Positions 12,956 to 50,364 of a stretch of DNA of 64,000 nucleotides are shown one piece after another. The notes beneath the pieces were generated by a model. The model was not told the origin of the DNA. It made no database searches and saw nothing but the letters and a program-made list of their open reading frames with translations. The stretch spans positions 496,001 through 560,000 of the forward strand of contig NZ_OZ032160.1 in assembly GCF_964026585.1 (NCBI RefSeq), given 5' to 3'. The position numbers and the translations under genes were made by a program. Numbering within the stretch: the stretch's first letter is position 1; each line of letters begins with the position of its first letter. This stretch comes from Candidatus Endowatersipora endosymbiont of Watersipora subatra. GTDB taxonomy: Bacteria; Pseudomonadota; Alphaproteobacteria; Rhizobiales; Rhizobiaceae.

Positions 12956-16323
<3,368 letters not shown>

Positions 16324-16580
16324 TGAATTCAAACCCCGTCAGTAAGACTAATAATGGAAAAAGAAATTACCGAAAGTGTCAAAGATTGTATTTCATTCCA
16401 ATCACTGATTCTCATAGAGTTAGTATGACCAGCCTCTTGGAGAGATTGAGGTTAAACAGGCCCTTGAGTCTCCAACGATCACAAGATGCTTTTGAATAGA
16501 GAAACAAGATTCTGTCCTTTTTTTCTAACAAAAAATGAATATTTAATTGAAGAATATTCGTTGGGCTTTGTCGCTCATGC

Positions 16581-43333: not shown

Positions 43334-44407
43334 TTACCCTTTCCTCTCTTTGTGGCTACCGTCACAATAAGGTTTATTTTTTGAGATTCCACAGCGGCAA
43401 AGAACGAATTTTTTAGAACAGGCACCTTGGATAGAAGATGAAGATACAAGCGGGATACGCACAACACGATAAGGACCATCTTTATCGATACTGATTCCTT
43501 TTTCCTTACTTATTTCATGTCGAGGCGCCTCAGTGTCTAATCTATATGATAAAGCACCCGATGGACAGGTCATGATGATAAAAATAATCTTATCCCTTGA
43601 AGCATTGTCGGGGATAATCCAAGGCGTTCTTGATGTATCAAAGACTGGTTTGAGGTGTTTTGTACATTCTCCAGCATGAGAGCAGAGCAAACGGTTATAA
43701 TAGACTGTTATATTTCGACCTTTGTATTCCTGAAAAGAACCAGATGTATATTCGTTCAAACATCGACTGTCAAAACCAATGTCATTATGAGATCCATCAC
43801 AGTAAGGCTGGTTTTTAGATGCACCACACCTGCACAAGGCCATGATCGGCTTCGTATCGAGAGGAATTCCATCTTCATTTATTAATCGACTGACCCCTTT
43901 TACAATGAGAGGACCACCATCTCTTTCTTCAATGCTAGATCCATTTGATACACTCTTCTTAGCATGAGCCTTCTCAGGAATCCGTCCCGTGAGGATCAAT
44001 CCATCACGGATATTCAAGCCCATCATGACGAGATTTGTTAATCCAGCTATGAGTTCCAATCCTTGTACTAAATAAAATTTAGTGTCAAAGGAGCCTGAGG
44101 AGGCTTTGTATTCGAGATAAAAAGCAGCAGGGACCAAAATTAGGAGACCATTTGCTCCAATGAATGGCATCCTTCTCTTTTTTGTTATAACTTTCGAGTC
44201 AATACGATTGGCCCCTAACCGAATCCCTGACCCGCCCGCAATGATCATAGTTGCGCTCAGGAAAAAAATTCCTTTTAGAATGTTAGATTTGACTAATACA
44301 ATATCTTCATAAGAACCAAATAGCTCAGAATAGACTGTTGATAAAAAAAATATTAGCACAATCAAGAAGCCAATGCATCCGGCAATGGAATGGATTTTTG
44401 TTTTCAT
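43334..44407 (-). CDS. Four-helix membrane protein with CDGSH, Fer4_19-like and CDGSH iron-sulfur modules
   Basis: The 357-aa protein appears to combine four membrane helices (about residues 6-24, 42-62, 83-98 and 112-132) with a cytoplasmic or periplasmic iron-sulfur part. The latter has two complete CDGSH motifs, CRCGASKNQPYCDGSH at 192-207 and CRCGISKNKPYCDGSH at 337-352. Each should bind a [2Fe-2S] cluster through three Cys and one His. Between them a Fer4_19 (DUF1271)-like segment has cysteines in LLCSHAGEC (242, 248) and TCPSGAL (281). CDGSH-Fer4_19-CDGSH proteins are known, but I do not recognise the membrane domain. The start overlaps the cytochrome b561 stop by 4 bp (ATGA), indicating translational coupling. 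Function is inferred as electron transfer only. Confidence 0.85.
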   Translation of the reverse strand: MKTKIHSIAGCIGFLIVLIFFLSTVYSELFGSYEDIVLVKSNILKGIFFLSATMIIAGGSGIRLGANRIDSKVITKKRRMPFIGANGLLILVPAAFYLEYKASSGSFDTKFYLVQGLELIAGLTNLVMMGLNIRDGLILTGRIPEKAHAKKSVSNGSSIEERDGGPLIVKGVSRLINEDGIPLDTKPIMALCRCGASKNQPYCDGSHNDIGFDSRCLNEYTSGSFQEYKGRNITVYYNRLLCSHAGECTKHLKPVFDTSRTPWIIPDNASRDKIIFIIMTCPSGALSYRLDTEAPRHEISKEKGISIDKDGPYRVVRIPLVSSSSIQGACSKKFVLCRCGISKNKPYCDGSHKERKG

Positions 44408-44958
44408 TTTCTACCCTTACTATCAAACCACATCCGGCGTAGTGTATCATCGTCTTTTATAAAATGATGATATATAGCTCCGCTAGCGTGGAACAGGAGT
44501 AAGGCCATCATTAGCTTTGCACCAAATGCATGAGGAGATCGTGGAAAATAAAGAGTAAAATCTGGCAAAGCATCTTCTAAATTCCCGAAAATTAAAAACT
44601 GGACTCCTGCTCCTGACAAAGAGAACATTCTGAGGCCAGTTATTATCATACCCAAAATGATAATATAGAATAAGAAATGAACGATTCTGGCAGATAATTT
44701 TTGCCACGTTGGATAAGATTCTAGGAAATCGGGTTTTTTATCAAAATGGAACCACCAAACTATACGGCTAAATGTCACAATGAGAGTTGCAATGCCCATT
44801 AAAAAATGTAATCTTAGAATATCATTTTTCATCAACGGATTACTGATTTGTCCTAATGAAAAACCTGATCCTAGAAGAGAGATGATAAGCACCGTTGACA
44901 ACCAATGAATTGTAAGAGCTACAATGCAATAATGTGAGTTATCACTTCGATTGATCAT
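44404..44958 (-). CDS. Cytochrome b561 (CybB type)
   Basis: Diheme inner-membrane cytochrome that passes electrons, often to quinone or oxygen species. The 184-aa protein has four helices, with histidines suited for heme ligation in IVALTIHWLSTVLI (His18), RLHFLMGIATLIV (helix 2), and KLMMALLLFHASGAIYHHF (helix 4). WWFHFDKKPDF and PRSPHAFGAKLM are also typical of bacterial cytochrome b561. It is the middle gene of a three-gene operon, 9 bp after the EF-hand gene and overlapping the CDGSH gene. The partner substrate is unknown. Confidence 0.9.
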   Translation of the reverse strand: MINRSDNSHYCIVALTIHWLSTVLIISLLGSGFSLGQISNPLMKNDILRLHFLMGIATLIVTFSRIVWWFHFDKKPDFLESYPTWQKLSARIVHFLFYIIILGMIITGLRMFSLSGAGVQFLIFGNLEDALPDFTLYFPRSPHAFGAKLMMALLLFHASGAIYHHFIKDDDTLRRMWFDSKGRK

Positions 44959-44967
44959 TTTTTATTC

Positions 44968-45723
44968 CTAACGTATAATTTTATATAATGAAGCATGAGT
45001 ATTGAGTCCGTCAACTGATTTGATTGTACTTGATTTATTCATTGCGATGGTAGCTTTATCGAAAGAATCAATGGTGTCCCATTTACTAATATTAACAAGA
45101 GGAAATTTTGCATTGGAGGAAAGGGCTTGATGGAGTTCACTGGAAATATAACCTGGTTGGCTCCGCAAAAATTTAGCAGTATTTTCCCAATATTTTATAG
45201 ATTCCTCTTCTTTTCCAGCAGGAACTGAGAAAAAAGTAACAAGTATTGCTGAATTAGATTTTTTAGCAATCGCTTTGTTCATTACTGCCATTATCTGTAC
45301 GTGAGTAGAAAAATTCTTGAAATCCATGGGTTCGTTTGATGAGATGTAGGATTGTGATAATTTTTGCTCTTGTAAGGAGAGACTAGTGTCTCCATTTAGG
45401 TCCCAACTCTTGAAGAGTTGAATAAGAGATGTTCGATATTGAGCCTCTTTGTTCCGTTCTTTTGCAATTCCCTTCCATCCTACATCCCAAGACATAAACT
45501 CTGATAGAGTTATTTCCTCGTCATCGTTGCTATCCATAGATAGCATTACTAAATTCCTAAAATGCTCAACTTCGCGGTTAGAGACTAAACCATCTTCATT
45601 AGCATCAACAGAATGGAAAATAGTCAAATTGAGATTCTCTAATTCCTTGTCCCAAGCTAAGGCCGAAGCAAAATTTGAAGTCCAGAAAAACAAAACTGCG
45701 CTTATTAATCCCCACCTTTTCAT
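44968..45723 (-). CDS. Exported EF-hand protein with C-terminal ABM (antibiotic biosynthesis monooxygenase-like) domain
   Basis: A 251-aa protein. The first 23 residues look like a signal peptide (KRWGLISAVLFFWTSNFASALA). Three EF-hand loops follow: DANEDGLVSNRE (40-51), DSNDDEEITLSE (64-75) and DLNGDTSLSLQE (108-119), the first and third with near-canonical ligands. Residues 158-245 match the ABM fold pattern: VTFFSVPAGKEEESIKYWEN, LRSQPGYISSELHQA and FPLVNISKWDTIDSF. The combination of calcium loops and an ABM domain in one exported chain is unusual, and I cannot name its function. It is the first gene of the operon with cytochrome b561 and the CDGSH protein. Confidence 0.8.
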   Translation of the reverse strand: MKRWGLISAVLFFWTSNFASALAWDKELENLNLTIFHSVDANEDGLVSNREVEHFRNLVMLSMDSNDDEEITLSEFMSWDVGWKGIAKERNKEAQYRTSLIQLFKSWDLNGDTSLSLQEQKLSQSYISSNEPMDFKNFSTHVQIMAVMNKAIAKKSNSAILVTFFSVPAGKEEESIKYWENTAKFLRSQPGYISSELHQALSSNAKFPLVNISKWDTIDSFDKATIAMNKSSTIKSVDGLNTHASLYKIIR

Positions 45724-46641
45724 CTTTATATATACTCCCTTTGATACTTATTAGATCTTTAATTAGAATTCGTAAATTGAAGGATTTCTAATATGAGAAC
45801 TGGACTTTCTTTAACCAAGACATATAATTTTATCTCTTCACACATTTTTGTCTAAAGAAAAAAATAAGTATATTAAATTTGTTAAGCGTCCACGGATGTT
45901 CTACAAGGAAAGGAACTCTAAGCAATCAAAGAATTCCTAGATATTTAGATCCAATCTGGCAGTCTAATGATAATCCTTTTGTCAAGAGAGACATTTTCCT
46001 TTACTAGAAAGCATACAAGTTAGCGTCTATTCGATATGATAAATCTGATCAAGAGATAGAGCCCTAGCCCTGCACGGAGTAGGTCTTAAACCCTCAAAAT
46101 AGGAATAGGATTCAAAACCTGAAATTATACCTAGAGGCTGAAAAAAGGTCAACCGCTAAAGATTCGAAATACTTAAGAGAGCTTATTTGATTAAGTAAAA
46201 ACGAGAACCTAGCGTCAATGATAGGAACCTTTATATTTGTTTCTCTTAAAAAAGAGGATCGTTGAAAACTTTAAACGAAAGGGTTAAAAGTCTTTAAATA
46301 AAGCCGTTTATTCATTTTTTTCTATTGTGGAAAAACTCTTTAAGAGAAGGTTATATTAACTTTTAAACTGCTAAAGCGCGTTGACGTAAGAGATCTCCTG
46401 ATTCATTCTTCCGTTCTGAATGGCAAACTTTTAATCAGCATAAGACTGAAGACTGTCATTTAAAAATCACCTACCGTCGTTCGGTCATTTATTTTCTAGT
46501 CTCTATTTTTCAGTAGGAACCTTAAGAGAACAATGAGTCAAATCAAACAAAAGAATCAAGGCAGAAGAGCAAACTGCACCAACAGCAAGAGAGAGAGCAT
46601 TAAATCAAACTCTCTTATCCAAACAAGGGATGATAAAAAAA
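45724..46641. promoter_or_regulatory. 918-bp gene-free region upstream of nrdJ with clustered TTAAGAGA motifs
   Basis: No open frame resembles a known protein on either strand. The octamer TTAAGAGA occurs at 46173-46180, 46340-46347 and 46522-46529 on the plus strand and at 46242-46249 on the minus strand, with near matches at 46386 and 46611. An AAGAGAG/CTCTCTT hairpin (46587-46593 with 46610-46616) lies just before the nrdJ ribosome-binding site. A 39-codon frame starting at 46533 overlaps the nrdJ start and is probably chance. I found no cobalamin-riboswitch B12 box. Confidence 0.45.
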
Positions 46642-49600
46642 ATGCGGATTGAGCGTTGCTACACAGAATCAGGACTTTCTCCCTTCGAAAACGTACCCTT
46701 TCGCTTGGCAAAGAGCGAAATCAAAAATCTGGATGGTTCTGTTGTATTTTGCCTTAAAGAGATTTGGGTTCCAGAGCAGTTCAGTCAGGTAGCAAGTGAT
46801 ATCATAGCCCAAAAATATTTTCGGAAAGCGGGTGTTCCTGCGGTCCTGAAAAGAGTTGAAGAGAACGGTGTACCATCATGGCTTTGGCGATCTGTTGAAA
46901 ACAAGGAAGAGCTTAAAAAATTGCCAAAGGCAAAGCGTTATGTCTCAGAAACCGATGCTAAGCAAGTGTTTCATCGATTGTCAGGTACATGGACCTACTG
47001 GGGCTGGAAGGGAGGATATTTTGATAGCGAAAATGATGCTAGAGCTTTTTATGATGAATTATGCTATATGCTGGCCACGCAAAAAGTTGCTCCTAATTCT
47101 CCACAATGGTTCAATACAGGTCTATACTGGGCTTATGGAATTAATGGACCCGCTCAGGGTCACTACTATGTAGATTATCAATCTGGTGAGTTAACTAAGT
47201 CTCAATCATCATACGAACATCCCCAACCCCATGCTTGTTTTATACAATCCGTTAGTGATGATTTGGTTGGCGATGGAGGCATTATGGATCTTTGGGTCCG
47301 TGAAGCACGTTTATTTAAGTACGGATCCGGTACCGGTTCTAATTTCTCACATATCCGTGGAGAAAACGAGCCTCTTTCTGGTGGAGGGCAGTCATCTGGT
47401 TTAATGTCTTTTCTGAAGATCGGTGACCGTGCAGCAGGTTCGATCAAATCTGGAGGAACGACTCGTCGTGCAGCAAAGATGGTTGTCATTGATATCGATC
47501 ATCCCGATGTAGAAAGTTACATAGGCTGGAAAGTACGTGAAGAACAGAAAGTGGCTGCTATTGTCACAGGTTCCAAAATTATTTCTTATCATATGAAAAC
47601 TATCATGAAGGCCTGCTTGACCTGCAAAGGTGATGATGATCAGTGCTTTACCCCTAATCATAATCCTGAGTTGAAAATGGCAATCTATGCAGCAAAAAAA
47701 TCTGCTGTTCCTGAAAACTATATTTCTCGGGTCATTCAGCTTGCCAAACAGGGATTCACTAAGTTTGAATTCCCTGTTTACAATATTGATTGGGATTCGG
47801 AAGCTTATCTAACAGTTTCTGGACAGAATTCTAATAATTCAGTCTCCCTCAAAGATGATTTTCTTAGAGCTGTTGAAAATGATAGAAATTGGAACCTTAT
47901 TGCGAGAAAGGATGGCTCGGTGACCAAAACTGTCCGAGCCCGTGATTTATGGGAACAAATCGCAGCGGCAGCATGGCAGTCAGCCGATCCTGGACTACAT
48001 TACAATACGACGATTAATGATTGGCATACATGCCCTGCTGATGGTCCGATTCGGTCATCTAACCCTTGCTCAGAATATATGTTTCTTGATAATACAGCAT
48101 GTAACCTTGCCTCACTAAATTTGATCCAATTTCAGCGGAATGATCACACTTTCGATGTCGAATCCTTCGAACATGCCTGCCGTATGTGGATGATAGTACT
48201 CGAAATCTCTATTATGATGGCGCAATTTCCATCAAAAGAGATTGCACAACGTTCTTATAATTACCGCACCACTGGTCTTGGTTTTGCTAACATTGGAGGC
48301 TTTTTGATGTCAGCAGGGATTCCGTATGATTCGAATGAAGGCCGCGCAATTTGTAGTGCAATTGCTGCTATCATGACTGGAATTTGCTATACTACGTCCG
48401 CTGAAATAGCTAAGGAACAGGGTCCCTTCTCTCAATATTTACCTAATGCAAAACATATGTCCCGTGTTATGCGTAACCATCAACGTGCTGCTCATGGGAT
48501 AGAAGATGGCTATGAAGGTCTTTCAGTGAAACCTATGCCCCTTGATCATGAACATATTTCTGATACTCGACTTTCTCAACATGCCAAATCAGCATGGGAT
48601 AAAGCTGTTGAACTTGGGAGTCTCTATGGTTACCGCAATGCTCAGACGACTGTTATTGCACCTACCGGTACGATCGGTCTTTTAATGGATTGCGATACAA
48701 CCGGGATCGAACCTGATTTTTCATTAGTGAAATTTAAAAAGCTTGCTGGTGGTGGCTATTTTAAAATTATAAATCGTACTGTACCGAAAGCTCTTGCCAA
48801 TCTTGGTTATGACAGTGATACAATTAAAGATATTATTACCTATGCCTTAGGCAAAGGAACACTAAAAGATTCTCGATCTATCTCTCATAGTGCACTAGAA
48901 GAAAAAGGGTTTAGCAAGCAACAGATAGATACCGTAGAATCTTACCTATCTCAAGCTTTTGATCTCAAATTTGCGATCAATAAATTTTCTCTTGGGGAAG
49001 GTTTTTGTAAAGAGAAACTAGGTTTTTCAGATAAACAACTCAATGATGTTAACTTTGATATCTTAGATGCCATCGGCTTCACGAAAGAAGAAATTCAAGC
49101 TGCTAATGTTCACTGTTGTGGCTCGATGACTCTGGAAGGCGCTCCTGGGTTACATAAAAAACATCTACCTATCTTTGACTGTGCAAATCCTTGTGGTCGT
49201 ATTGGCAAACGCCATTTATCCACCGAAAGCCACATCTTTATGATGGCATCTGTTCAACCTTTCATCTCTGGTGCTATTTCCAAGACAATAAATATACCAA
49301 ACAATGCGGTTATTAAAGATTGTATGGCCGCGTATATGTTATCTTGGAAACTGGGACTGAAAGCAAATGCCCTGTACCGAGATGGTTCAAAACTCTCACA
49401 ACCTCTGAATTCTTCATTGATTGAAGAAGAAGGAAATGAGGAGGAGAGTCTTGATGATTTTATTGAATCCCCAACTGTAGCCCGTACCACACAACTTACG
49501 GAAAAGATCTCTGGAAAAGTTATCGAGCGGATTGTTGAAATAAAAATGAGAGAAAAATTGCCAAATCGCCGCAAGGGTTATACACAAAAGGCAGTTGTTG

Positions 49601-50364
49601 GTGGTCATAAAGTTTATTTACGAACAGGTGAATTTGATGATGGTCGCATAGGTGAAATATTTATTGATATGCACAAGGAAGGTGCTGCATTCCGTGCTAT
49701 GATGAATAATTTTGCTATTGCGATATCACTCGGTCTACAATATGGAGTCCCATTAGAGGAATATGTAGAGGCTTTTACCTTCACGAAATTCGAACCCTCT
49801 GGTCTCGTGAAAGGGAATGATGCTATTAAAAATGCAACCTCTATTCTTGATTACACATTCCGTGAGCTTGCTATTTCTTACCTTGGTCGTCATGATCTTG
49901 GTCATGTCGATACGTCCAACTTTGCTTCTACTGCTCTTGGCAAAGGAATGCAAGAAGGAAAGACCGAAGCAGTTTCTCATGGTCTTACCCGTGGCCATAA
50001 ACTCTCTGTTATCTCTAGTAAAACCAATGAGGTTGATTCAGAGAGCTCAGTCCATACAAAAAGTGAAGAGGTTTTTTATGAGAACTCGGCATTAAGTGGT
50101 AGCTTTTTCTCTACAATGTCGGCTAATGTAGAAGCACAGATACCGAACACGCGAATTCAAGAAAATATTAACTCTTTCAAGCGTAAGGATAGTTCTTCTT
50201 CAGAAGAAAGAAGCCTCAAATTGTCTAGAAGAGAAAGACGTGTCATTGCTAAAATGCAAGGATATGAAGGAGAGAGTTGTCCTGAATGTCAAGATTTTAC
50301 AATGGTTCGCAACGGGACATGTCTTAAATGTGAGACTTGCGGATCGACCACAGGGTGTAGCTAG
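46642..50364 (+). CDS. nrdJ: Adenosylcobalamin-dependent (class II) ribonucleotide reductase
   Basis: Reduces ribonucleotides to deoxyribonucleotides using adenosylcobalamin, with no need for oxygen or a metal radical subunit. The protein is 1240 aa, the long alphaproteobacterial form. It begins [20 protein letters not shown] and has [24 protein letters not shown] and [22 protein letters not shown]. The C-terminus is a zinc-ribbon-like cysteine cluster (SCPECQDF...[14 protein letters not shown]) that also shuttles electrons. The ATG at 46642 matches the family start and has AAGGG at a proper distance; the ATG at 46630 lies on top of that site. The gene is preceded by a long gene-free leader. 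Confidence 0.97.

Follow-up and report, generated by a model that had tools for sequence, protein, structure and literature searches.

The window analysed here is a 64,000-nucleotide stretch of the genome of Candidatus Endowatersipora endosymbiont of Watersipora subatra (contig NZ_OZ032160.1, positions 496,001 to 560,000). At 43334–45723 it carries three closely packed genes, and the question is what an EF-hand/ABM protein, a cytochrome b561, and a membrane protein with CDGSH and Fer4_19 domains do together. They represent a modular cluster in its fullest and most compact observed form, and this cluster is almost certainly a conserved module. Its favoured function, at a probability of roughly 0.45, is that of a transmembrane quinone/oxidant redox module following the logic of the LcoA-BcnA system, with the EF-ABM protein in the lipocalin's place. 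TM4 denotes the four N-terminal helices of the third protein. The features are as follows.

44968–45723, minus strand: EF-hand and ABM protein, 251 aa, probably periplasmic (Pfam ABM, three EF loops, AlphaFold2, Foldseek)
45652–45723, minus strand: its signal peptide, about residues 1–24, N-terminus MKRWGLISAVLFFWTSNFASALA (by eye)
45571–45606, minus strand: EF loop 1, DANEDGLVSNRE, residues 40–51, canonical
45499–45534, minus strand: EF loop 2, DSNDDEEITLSE, residues 64–75, canonical
45367–45402, minus strand: EF loop 3, DLNGDTSLSLQE, residues 108–119, canonical
44980–45249, minus strand: ABM domain, residues 159–248, with H198, N211, and W215 (Pfam, AlphaFold2, Foldseek, profile search)
44404–44958, minus strand: cytochrome b561, 184 aa, diheme type (PF01292, prokaryotic b561, 90.6 bits)
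43334–44407, minus strand: TM4-CDGSH-Fer4_19-CDGSH membrane protein, 357 aa (Pfam, AlphaFold2)
43973–44407, minus strand: TM4 membrane domain, residues 1–145, probably N-in/C-in (alignment, Lys/Arg pattern; no Pfam match)
43784–43915, minus strand: first CDGSH region (62 bits; Foldseek 3tbm, TM-score to target 0.86)
43541–43726, minus strand: Fer4_19 domain, residues 228–289 (83.9 bits, cut-off 24)
43349–43480, minus strand: second CDGSH region (49.7 bits)
45724–46629, no strand: spacer of 906 bp, in which neither a MarR gene nor a MarR site can be detected; locus L106 (see below) and many relatives have both at this place, the gene being divergent

The coordinates and strand of the three genes were rechecked and are exact. 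EF-ABM and b561 are separated by 9 bp, and b561 and the TM4-CDGSH gene overlap by 4 bp (ATGA). The source genome is a single 906-kb contig, and 14 other searched genomes of its GTDB genus, two of them only 61% and 77% complete, span 2.4–4.8 Mb; the statement of a first-pass annotation that the genome has shed many genes is therefore fair. That annotation had also read from the letters the packing, a signal peptide with three EF loops and an ABM-like domain, a diheme-type b561, and four helices with two CDGSH motifs flanking a Fer4_19-like segment, all of which are borne out. The three frames are all intact, with their conserved motif residues retained, and the persistence of the operon in a reduced genome makes it plausible that it matters.

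We searched samples of 61 relatives and of 249 order, 385 class, and 398 phylum genomes, each including the own genome. EF-ABM was the only query for the order sample, the phylum sample overlaps the class sample, and loci reach 1.5 kb to each side, three phylum matches having no locus. A further set holds the best 80 of at least 454 TM4 relatives in a scan of named genomes, with loci scanned by local hidden Markov models (HMMs). Near-duplicates are left in the counts (L054 and L084 are from one genome, as are L099 and L105, and L112 has the same TM4 sequence as the latter two); identical sequences were removed before the b561 and TM4 counts, and one plasmid row before structure prediction. The complete trio recurs in L106, from the uncultured Rhizobiaceae-group isolate YR2-508-J, where a divergent MarR gene is followed by EF-ABM, b561, and TM4-CDGSH in the window's order and with the same ATGA overlap; its EF-ABM and TM4-CDGSH proteins are 54% and 65% identical to those of the window. 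Ruegeria sediminis (L129) has EF-ABM, TM4-CDGSH, and b561, the last gene being b561, and ABM, b561, and TM4-CDGSH without EF are found in Marinicaulis (L135) and one Woeseiaceae assembly (L139 and L147). The latter, the metagenome-assembled genome OFTM62, contains two copies of MarR-b561-ABM-TM4-CDGSH. As EF-ABM fusions (L100, L106, and L129) and TM4-CDGSH fusions recur in other genomes, the window fusions are not a matter of chance.

The gene 3 protein matches 14 of the 61 relatives, where all matches but its own cover either TM4 or residues of the CDGSH half alone, and 28 of the 385 class genomes, the only full-length match being the window itself. TM4 occurs in 33 of the 398 phylum genomes. 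EF-ABM matches seven of the 385 class genomes at E ≤ 1e-8, with G507 nearly full-length besides the window (residues 17–250), and 27 of the 249 order genomes at E ≤ 1e-5, only its own match being full-length. One order locus (L044) has a TM4-CDGSH fusion without b561. When MarR and reductase are set aside, the 80 best TM4 loci comprise ABM+TM4 (31), TM4 (27, three of them TM4-FNR, fused to a reductase-like domain), EF+b561+TM4 (11), ABM+TM4+CDGSH (4), ABM+b561+TM4+CDGSH (3), all five parts (2), ABM+EF+TM4 (1), and b561+TM4 (1). The earlier proposal of a linked trio thus stands insofar as the trio is complete in L106 and its parts return in L129 and, without EF, in L135, L139, and L147, but the exact trio is rare: smaller combinations beside MarR are usual, and among the examined matches from the four samples none outside the own genome joins a TM4-CDGSH fusion to b561. 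By eye, two relatives with larger genomes (L027 and L028) have a stand-alone CDGSH-Fer4_19-CDGSH gene with a different small membrane protein just upstream.

The strongest evidence for an electron-transfer module is that two unrelated electron carriers occur on one shared membrane domain. Among 111 non-identical TM4 frames, 17 run into a FAD/NAD(P)H reductase-like domain (FNR), ten, including the window's, run into CDGSH-Fer4_19-CDGSH, and 83 stop after TM4; an eleventh CDGSH row is a cut copy of the window frame. Two reductase fusions tested score 57.7 and 75.5 bits with Pfam NAD_binding_1. On the conjugative plasmid pTPRO5 of Salipiger profundus (L060, 5977–7146), TM4-FNR is one open frame of 390 aa, of which the gene table lists the C-terminal part only, as an FAD-dependent oxidoreductase. 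The 80 best TM4 loci include 16 FNR-fused, nine CDGSH-fused, and 55 unfused TM4s, and b561 accompanies 12, five, and none of them, respectively, that is, 17 of 25 fused versus 0 of 55 unfused TM4s (Fisher p of about 1e-11, ancestry ignored). In a tree of 58 TM4 rows the window lies beside L106 (support 100/84), and the tree's well-supported branches require the CDGSH tail to have been gained or lost at least five times, so that the tail is exchangeable. The ten FNR rows form one clade, so the b561 link rests on perhaps four or five independent groups and the Fisher value is overstated. The swap of CDGSH and FNR on TM4 and the link of b561 to fused TM4s strengthen the first-pass suggestion that cytoplasmic clusters feed a membrane chain, but the direction of the electrons and the sensing of calcium are still putative parts of it. 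Among 33 EF locus rows, 24 have b561 (18 distinct, after removal of the window's two rows and four repeats), six, from three genomes each represented twice, have a separate reductase, one has TM4-FNR, and two from one genome (L043 and L071) have none of these. In L064, L066, and L068, MarR is divergent from a leader-bearing EF-hand protein followed by a protein with an FAD/NAD reductase domain, a possible bacterial calcium-linked NOX pair; the Ferric_reduct membrane domain and FAD/NAD domains were Pfam-tested in L066 only, where the former is confirmed.

MarR genes, detected with a broad family model, accompany these modules. Of the 80 best TM4 loci, 72 have a MarR gene no more than 2 kb away. 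Within 1.5 kb it is found in 14 of 16 class and six of six relative TM4 loci, compared with 0 of 12 class and one of nine relative CDGSH-only loci. It is also found in 21 of 28 phylum loci scanned; of the other five phylum genomes with TM4 (33 in all), one is the own genome, one has a locus that had come up before, and three have no locus. Where MarR and module genes diverge, the stretch between them usually contains a near-perfect palindrome, of which two kinds occur: kind A, TATAGC-NN-GCTATA (at least 10 of 12 matches), which we take to resemble the SlyA box, and kind B, TTGACAWCATGWTGTCAA (at least 15 of 18 matches). After 15 of 108 divergent loci were dropped as same-genome repeats, 84 of the remaining 93 carry one of the two kinds (43 kind A, 41 kind B), and nine carry neither. 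Kind A reaches at least 10 of 12 matches in 52 of the 108 loci and in 1 of 108 single-base shuffles; two kind-B variants reach at least 12 of 16 in 43 of the 108 loci each, and the shuffles never exceed 11 of 16. The MarR proteins of the two kinds fall into separate blocks of a quick midpoint-rooted tree, in which support values were not considered. From the position of the genes and the palindromes we infer that MarR proteins would control the modules.

In L106, MarR is beside the operon and the site is weak (nine of 12 kind A matches). Upstream of the window operon, a search for a MarR relic gave no convincing tblastn match (best E 0.051 over nine residues) and no HMM match, and no palindromic site was found near it; the operon is probably expressed constitutively in the absence of the regulator. 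The GC content of the spacer is 0.332, and that of the whole window 0.389. The only MarR-family match in the own genome was set aside: by eye it looks like a protein of AsnC/Lrp type, and the gene next to it resembles alanine dehydrogenase. Beyond the spacer and divergent from the operon, 46630–50364 encodes a 1244-aa ribonucleotide reductase, apparently of the B12-dependent kind, and elsewhere a 688-aa open reading frame (14266–16332) resembles the transcription-repair coupling factor Mfd without its N-terminal part; these identities, and the finding of no polyketide genes near the operon, are by eye. A nitrogen-fixing symbiont was ruled out, no nifH-family match being above cut-off.

Pfam places two zf-CDGSH stretches and one Fer4_19 domain of the gene 3 protein above cut-off. 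The pattern C-X-C-...-CDGSH (3Cys-1His) occurs at residues 192–207 and 337–352, and Cys242, His244, Cys248, and Cys281 of Fer4_19 are invariant in six aligned sequences, window included. The AlphaFold2 model, with a mean predicted local distance difference test (pLDDT) score of 91.3, has helices at residues 2–30, 33–65, 71–103, and 109–139 followed by the Fe-S part. Loop 2 of TM4 holds six Lys/Arg residues, loop 1 none, and loop 3 one, a pattern that suggests a cytoplasmic location for both TM4 ends and the Fe-S part. TM4 matched no Pfam family. Nor did Foldseek return a specific fold, with 445 matches at E ≤ 10 and none at E ≤ 0.001, the TM4 matches among the best 50 being generic four-helix bundles. 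One TM4 has a weak SpoIIM score (18.7 versus 26.9 bits), and kinship with DUF1772 or b561 was rejected at a profile-comparison probability of 0.3% each.

The papers cited here by PubMed Central (PMC) accession are represented by excerpts. In b561, His18, His51, His94, His143, His157, and His164 are invariant in all 30 non-identical b561s of the fetched loci, window included. The protein aligns with E. coli CybB (5oc0, E 1.3e-5), whose quinone site includes Arg63, His87, His151, His158, and Asp164 and whose superoxide-collecting cationic residues are Arg30, Arg35, Arg38, Arg108, and Lys134 (PMC11869295). The last four quinone-site residues are kept in 30 of 30 as His94, His157, His164, and Asp170. 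Arg30, Arg35, Arg38, and Arg108 correspond to Leu35, Leu42, Asn45, and Ala117, and only Lys134 is matched, by Arg140, the loop alignment being uncertain. From this b561 one would expect electron movement between quinone and the periplasmic side, but not necessarily the collection of superoxide.

The N-terminus of EF-ABM is hydrophobic like a Sec signal, and its EF homologues also begin with hydrophobic leaders (both by eye). Its three EF loops have canonical spacing, and the fourth loop of stand-alone EF homologues is degenerate in it. Pfam EF models reach 24.8 bits (cut-off 25.4) on the window protein and 29.4 bits, above cut-off, on its L106 homologue; the ABM model gives 29.1 bits (cut-off 23.1). 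Foldseek of the AlphaFold2 model (pLDDT 87.1) returns ABM structures, 2ril being nearest (TM-score to target 0.93) and SnoaB next. In the profile ranking, RslO4, SnoaB, and 9kdp stand above the heme degraders MhuD and HmoB; WD-40 chains were disregarded as repetitive, with no single passing stretch. Asn211 and Trp215, four residues apart, are invariant in ten of ten aligned ABMs, and we presume a catalytic role for both; SnoaB N63A is, by its title, a solved mutant structure. A DUF1772-type membrane protein occurs in 13 loci (L099 and L105 from one genome), none with ABM, and the only one tested (L109) scores 34.6 bits with Pfam Anthrone_oxy (cut-off 27.3). That alternative clusters contain two unrelated families of similar presumed chemistry suggests a quinone-like substrate.

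Taken as a quinone/oxidant module, the cluster would combine an exported EF and/or ABM protein, a membrane heme-b protein, and a cytoplasmic redox domain. TM4 would hold the CDGSH-Fer4_19-CDGSH part at the inner membrane face next to b561, and this Fe-S domain would exchange electrons with the quinone pool or with the b561 hemes. Electron transfer across the membrane between a cytoplasmic redox domain and b561/quinone is the part we consider fairly likely. The b561 would link the electrons to periplasmic EF-ABM, whose ABM domain, nearest to anthrone-oxygenase-type enzymes, may bind or oxidise a quinone-like or aromatic compound. The EF hands may tie folding or activity to periplasmic calcium; that calcium is a regulator rather than a structural ion is a tentative proposal, the weaker of the two options. 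A MarR protein is the probable switch of the module in relatives. The likely purpose would be to keep aromatic quinones or oxidants from damaging the envelope or quinone pool, and for such protection as the purpose we put the odds at a little below even.

Several observations weigh against this reading. TM4 has a single conserved histidine, His6, and together with its generic structural matches this means that it may be a mere anchor. In 55 of the 80 best TM4 loci TM4 is unfused and without b561, so its basic function does not have to depend on b561; outside that set, one locus (L086) combines b561 with an unfused TM4. The links to EF and b561 are concentrated in few clades. Arg63 of CybB, which contacts His87, is replaced by Trp69 in the b561 alignment, and ActVA-Orf6 falls below the heme degraders in the ABM ranking. 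As judged by eye, no ABM leader is evident in nine of 16 distinct loci with ABM and b561, which suggests a cytoplasmic ABM there, unlike in the window. Four distinct loci have a leader on a stand-alone ABM with b561, three more have one on the EF-ABM fusion, and among ABMs beside unfused TM4 none is evident; an exported ABM is therefore a trait of the window's type and not of all members.

The rival that deserves most attention, although it is unlikely, is detoxification of aromatics or anthrones/hydroquinones, with the ABM or DUF1772 oxygenase doing the enzymatic work, TM4, b561, and the Fe-S domain only regenerating or disposing of the quinone, and calcium having a structural role only. It would account for ABM and DUF1772, families that both include anthrone oxygenases, never sharing a locus, for ABM+TM4 being the commonest set among kind-B loci (21 of 41), and for adjacent MarR proteins whose aligned part has no conserved cysteine, which suggests ligand sensing. 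It fits less well with 24 of the 80 best TM4 loci, where unfused TM4 has no ABM, EF, or b561; other oxygenases were not looked for there. An improbable role is iron or Fe-S/heme housekeeping, with cluster transfer by CDGSH/Fer4_19, heme degradation by ABM, and reduction of periplasmic iron by b561. The swap for an FAD/NAD(P)H reductase favours electrons over clusters, three anthrone-type enzymes outrank the heme degraders, and no recurrent neighbour cluster resembles an iron regulator or transporter (by eye, most being unannotated), even though CDGSH proteins are tied to iron metabolism (PMC5859297), MhuD and HmoB are among the ABM profile matches, and ABM has a weak similarity to HmuQ (15.7 bits, cut-off 130).

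That b561 is a CybB-type superoxide oxidase with accessory neighbours would fit its relation to 5oc0 and its conserved quinone-site residues, but four of the five cationic residues listed in PMC11869295 are unmatched, within the uncertainty of the loop alignment, and we regard this as very improbable. Slightest of all is the chance that the operon is a relic of genome reduction, present merely because it has not yet decayed: regulator and site are absent as such a relic would have it, but the intact frames and conserved motif residues speak otherwise.

No described system combining the three parts was known to the first-pass annotation, and we found none among the papers listed from the open-access PMC literature, covered in part through titles and abstract starts, with subscription papers and outside preprints beyond its scope; excerpts of PMC11559002, PMC4053335, PMC5676040, and PMC13171946 describe other systems. 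Closest in logic is LcoA-BcnA of Burkholderia cenocepacia, a cytochrome b561 and a YceI lipocalin for which quinone-based quenching of envelope radicals is proposed and which has gene fusions in alphaproteobacteria (PMC9113575). Both systems have b561 in an operon with an exported partner. The window differs in its EF-ABM partner and extra membrane-anchored Fe-S protein, and its relatives in the MarR beside the genes. No YceI-type lipocalin was linked to the window b561: Pfam at E ≤ 1 on the exported partner gives EF-hand/SPARC and ABM only, and the rest of the genome was not searched. CybB belongs to the same family and shares the quinone-site His and Asp, but its superoxide-collecting arginines are not conserved in the window b561, which is in an operon with redox partners (PMC11869295). 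The cofactor-independent oxygenases SnoaB, RslO4, and ActVA-Orf6 share the ABM fold with Asn and Trp four residues apart, whereas the window ABM is fused to EF hands and probably exported. EfhP (PA4107) is likewise a membrane-tethered or periplasmic EF-hand protein, and was set aside as a homologous system because its P. aeruginosa neighbours are DUF692/DUF2063 and not b561, ABM, or TM4 (excerpts of PMC4053335 and PMC11559002). CDGSH with Fer4_19 in bacterial proteins is already known from PMC5859297, whose excerpt does not mention a TM4-like membrane fusion. NOX5-type and bacterial NOX proteins join a ferric-reductase membrane domain to FNR, some with EF hands (PMC5676040), and so have the same set of functions: EF hands, a heme-b membrane domain, and a cytoplasmic electron donor. 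In the window the EF hands probably face the periplasm, b561 takes the place of the ferric-reductase domain, and Fe-S that of FAD/NAD(P)H; Pfam finds no one-chain ferric-reductase/FNR protein of NOX/DUOX type in the operon, but b561 and CDGSH-Fer4_19 instead. The two layouts approach each other in L066, where EF is paired with a ferric-reductase/FAD/NAD protein, and in L064 and L068, where it is paired with the same reductase domain.

A b561 with an exported partner is thus already known, while the gene-cluster family itself is apparently widespread and undescribed. CDGSH-Fer4_19 proteins are widespread in bacteria and, to our knowledge, little understood; domain swapping on TM4 gives them a concrete and testable candidate role, as membrane-docked electron donors. 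With MarR genes and near-perfect palindromes at hand, an inducer should be discoverable in Kiloniella spongiae, Ruegeria conchae, and Ruegeria sediminis. It is possible, if doubtful, that the modules form an undescribed, MarR-controlled, mix-and-match class of transmembrane electron transfer in Pseudomonadota, in which TM4, a new membrane domain, acts as the hub that docks an NAD(P)H-flavin reductase or CDGSH/4Fe-4S domain onto b561 and feeds calcium-binding periplasmic partners; in layout this would be a bacterial, calcium-linked counterpart of NOX5, assembled from unrelated components. Should the quinone/oxidant reading be true, the operon would represent a membrane redox defence beside LcoA-BcnA, with periplasmic calcium linked to it.

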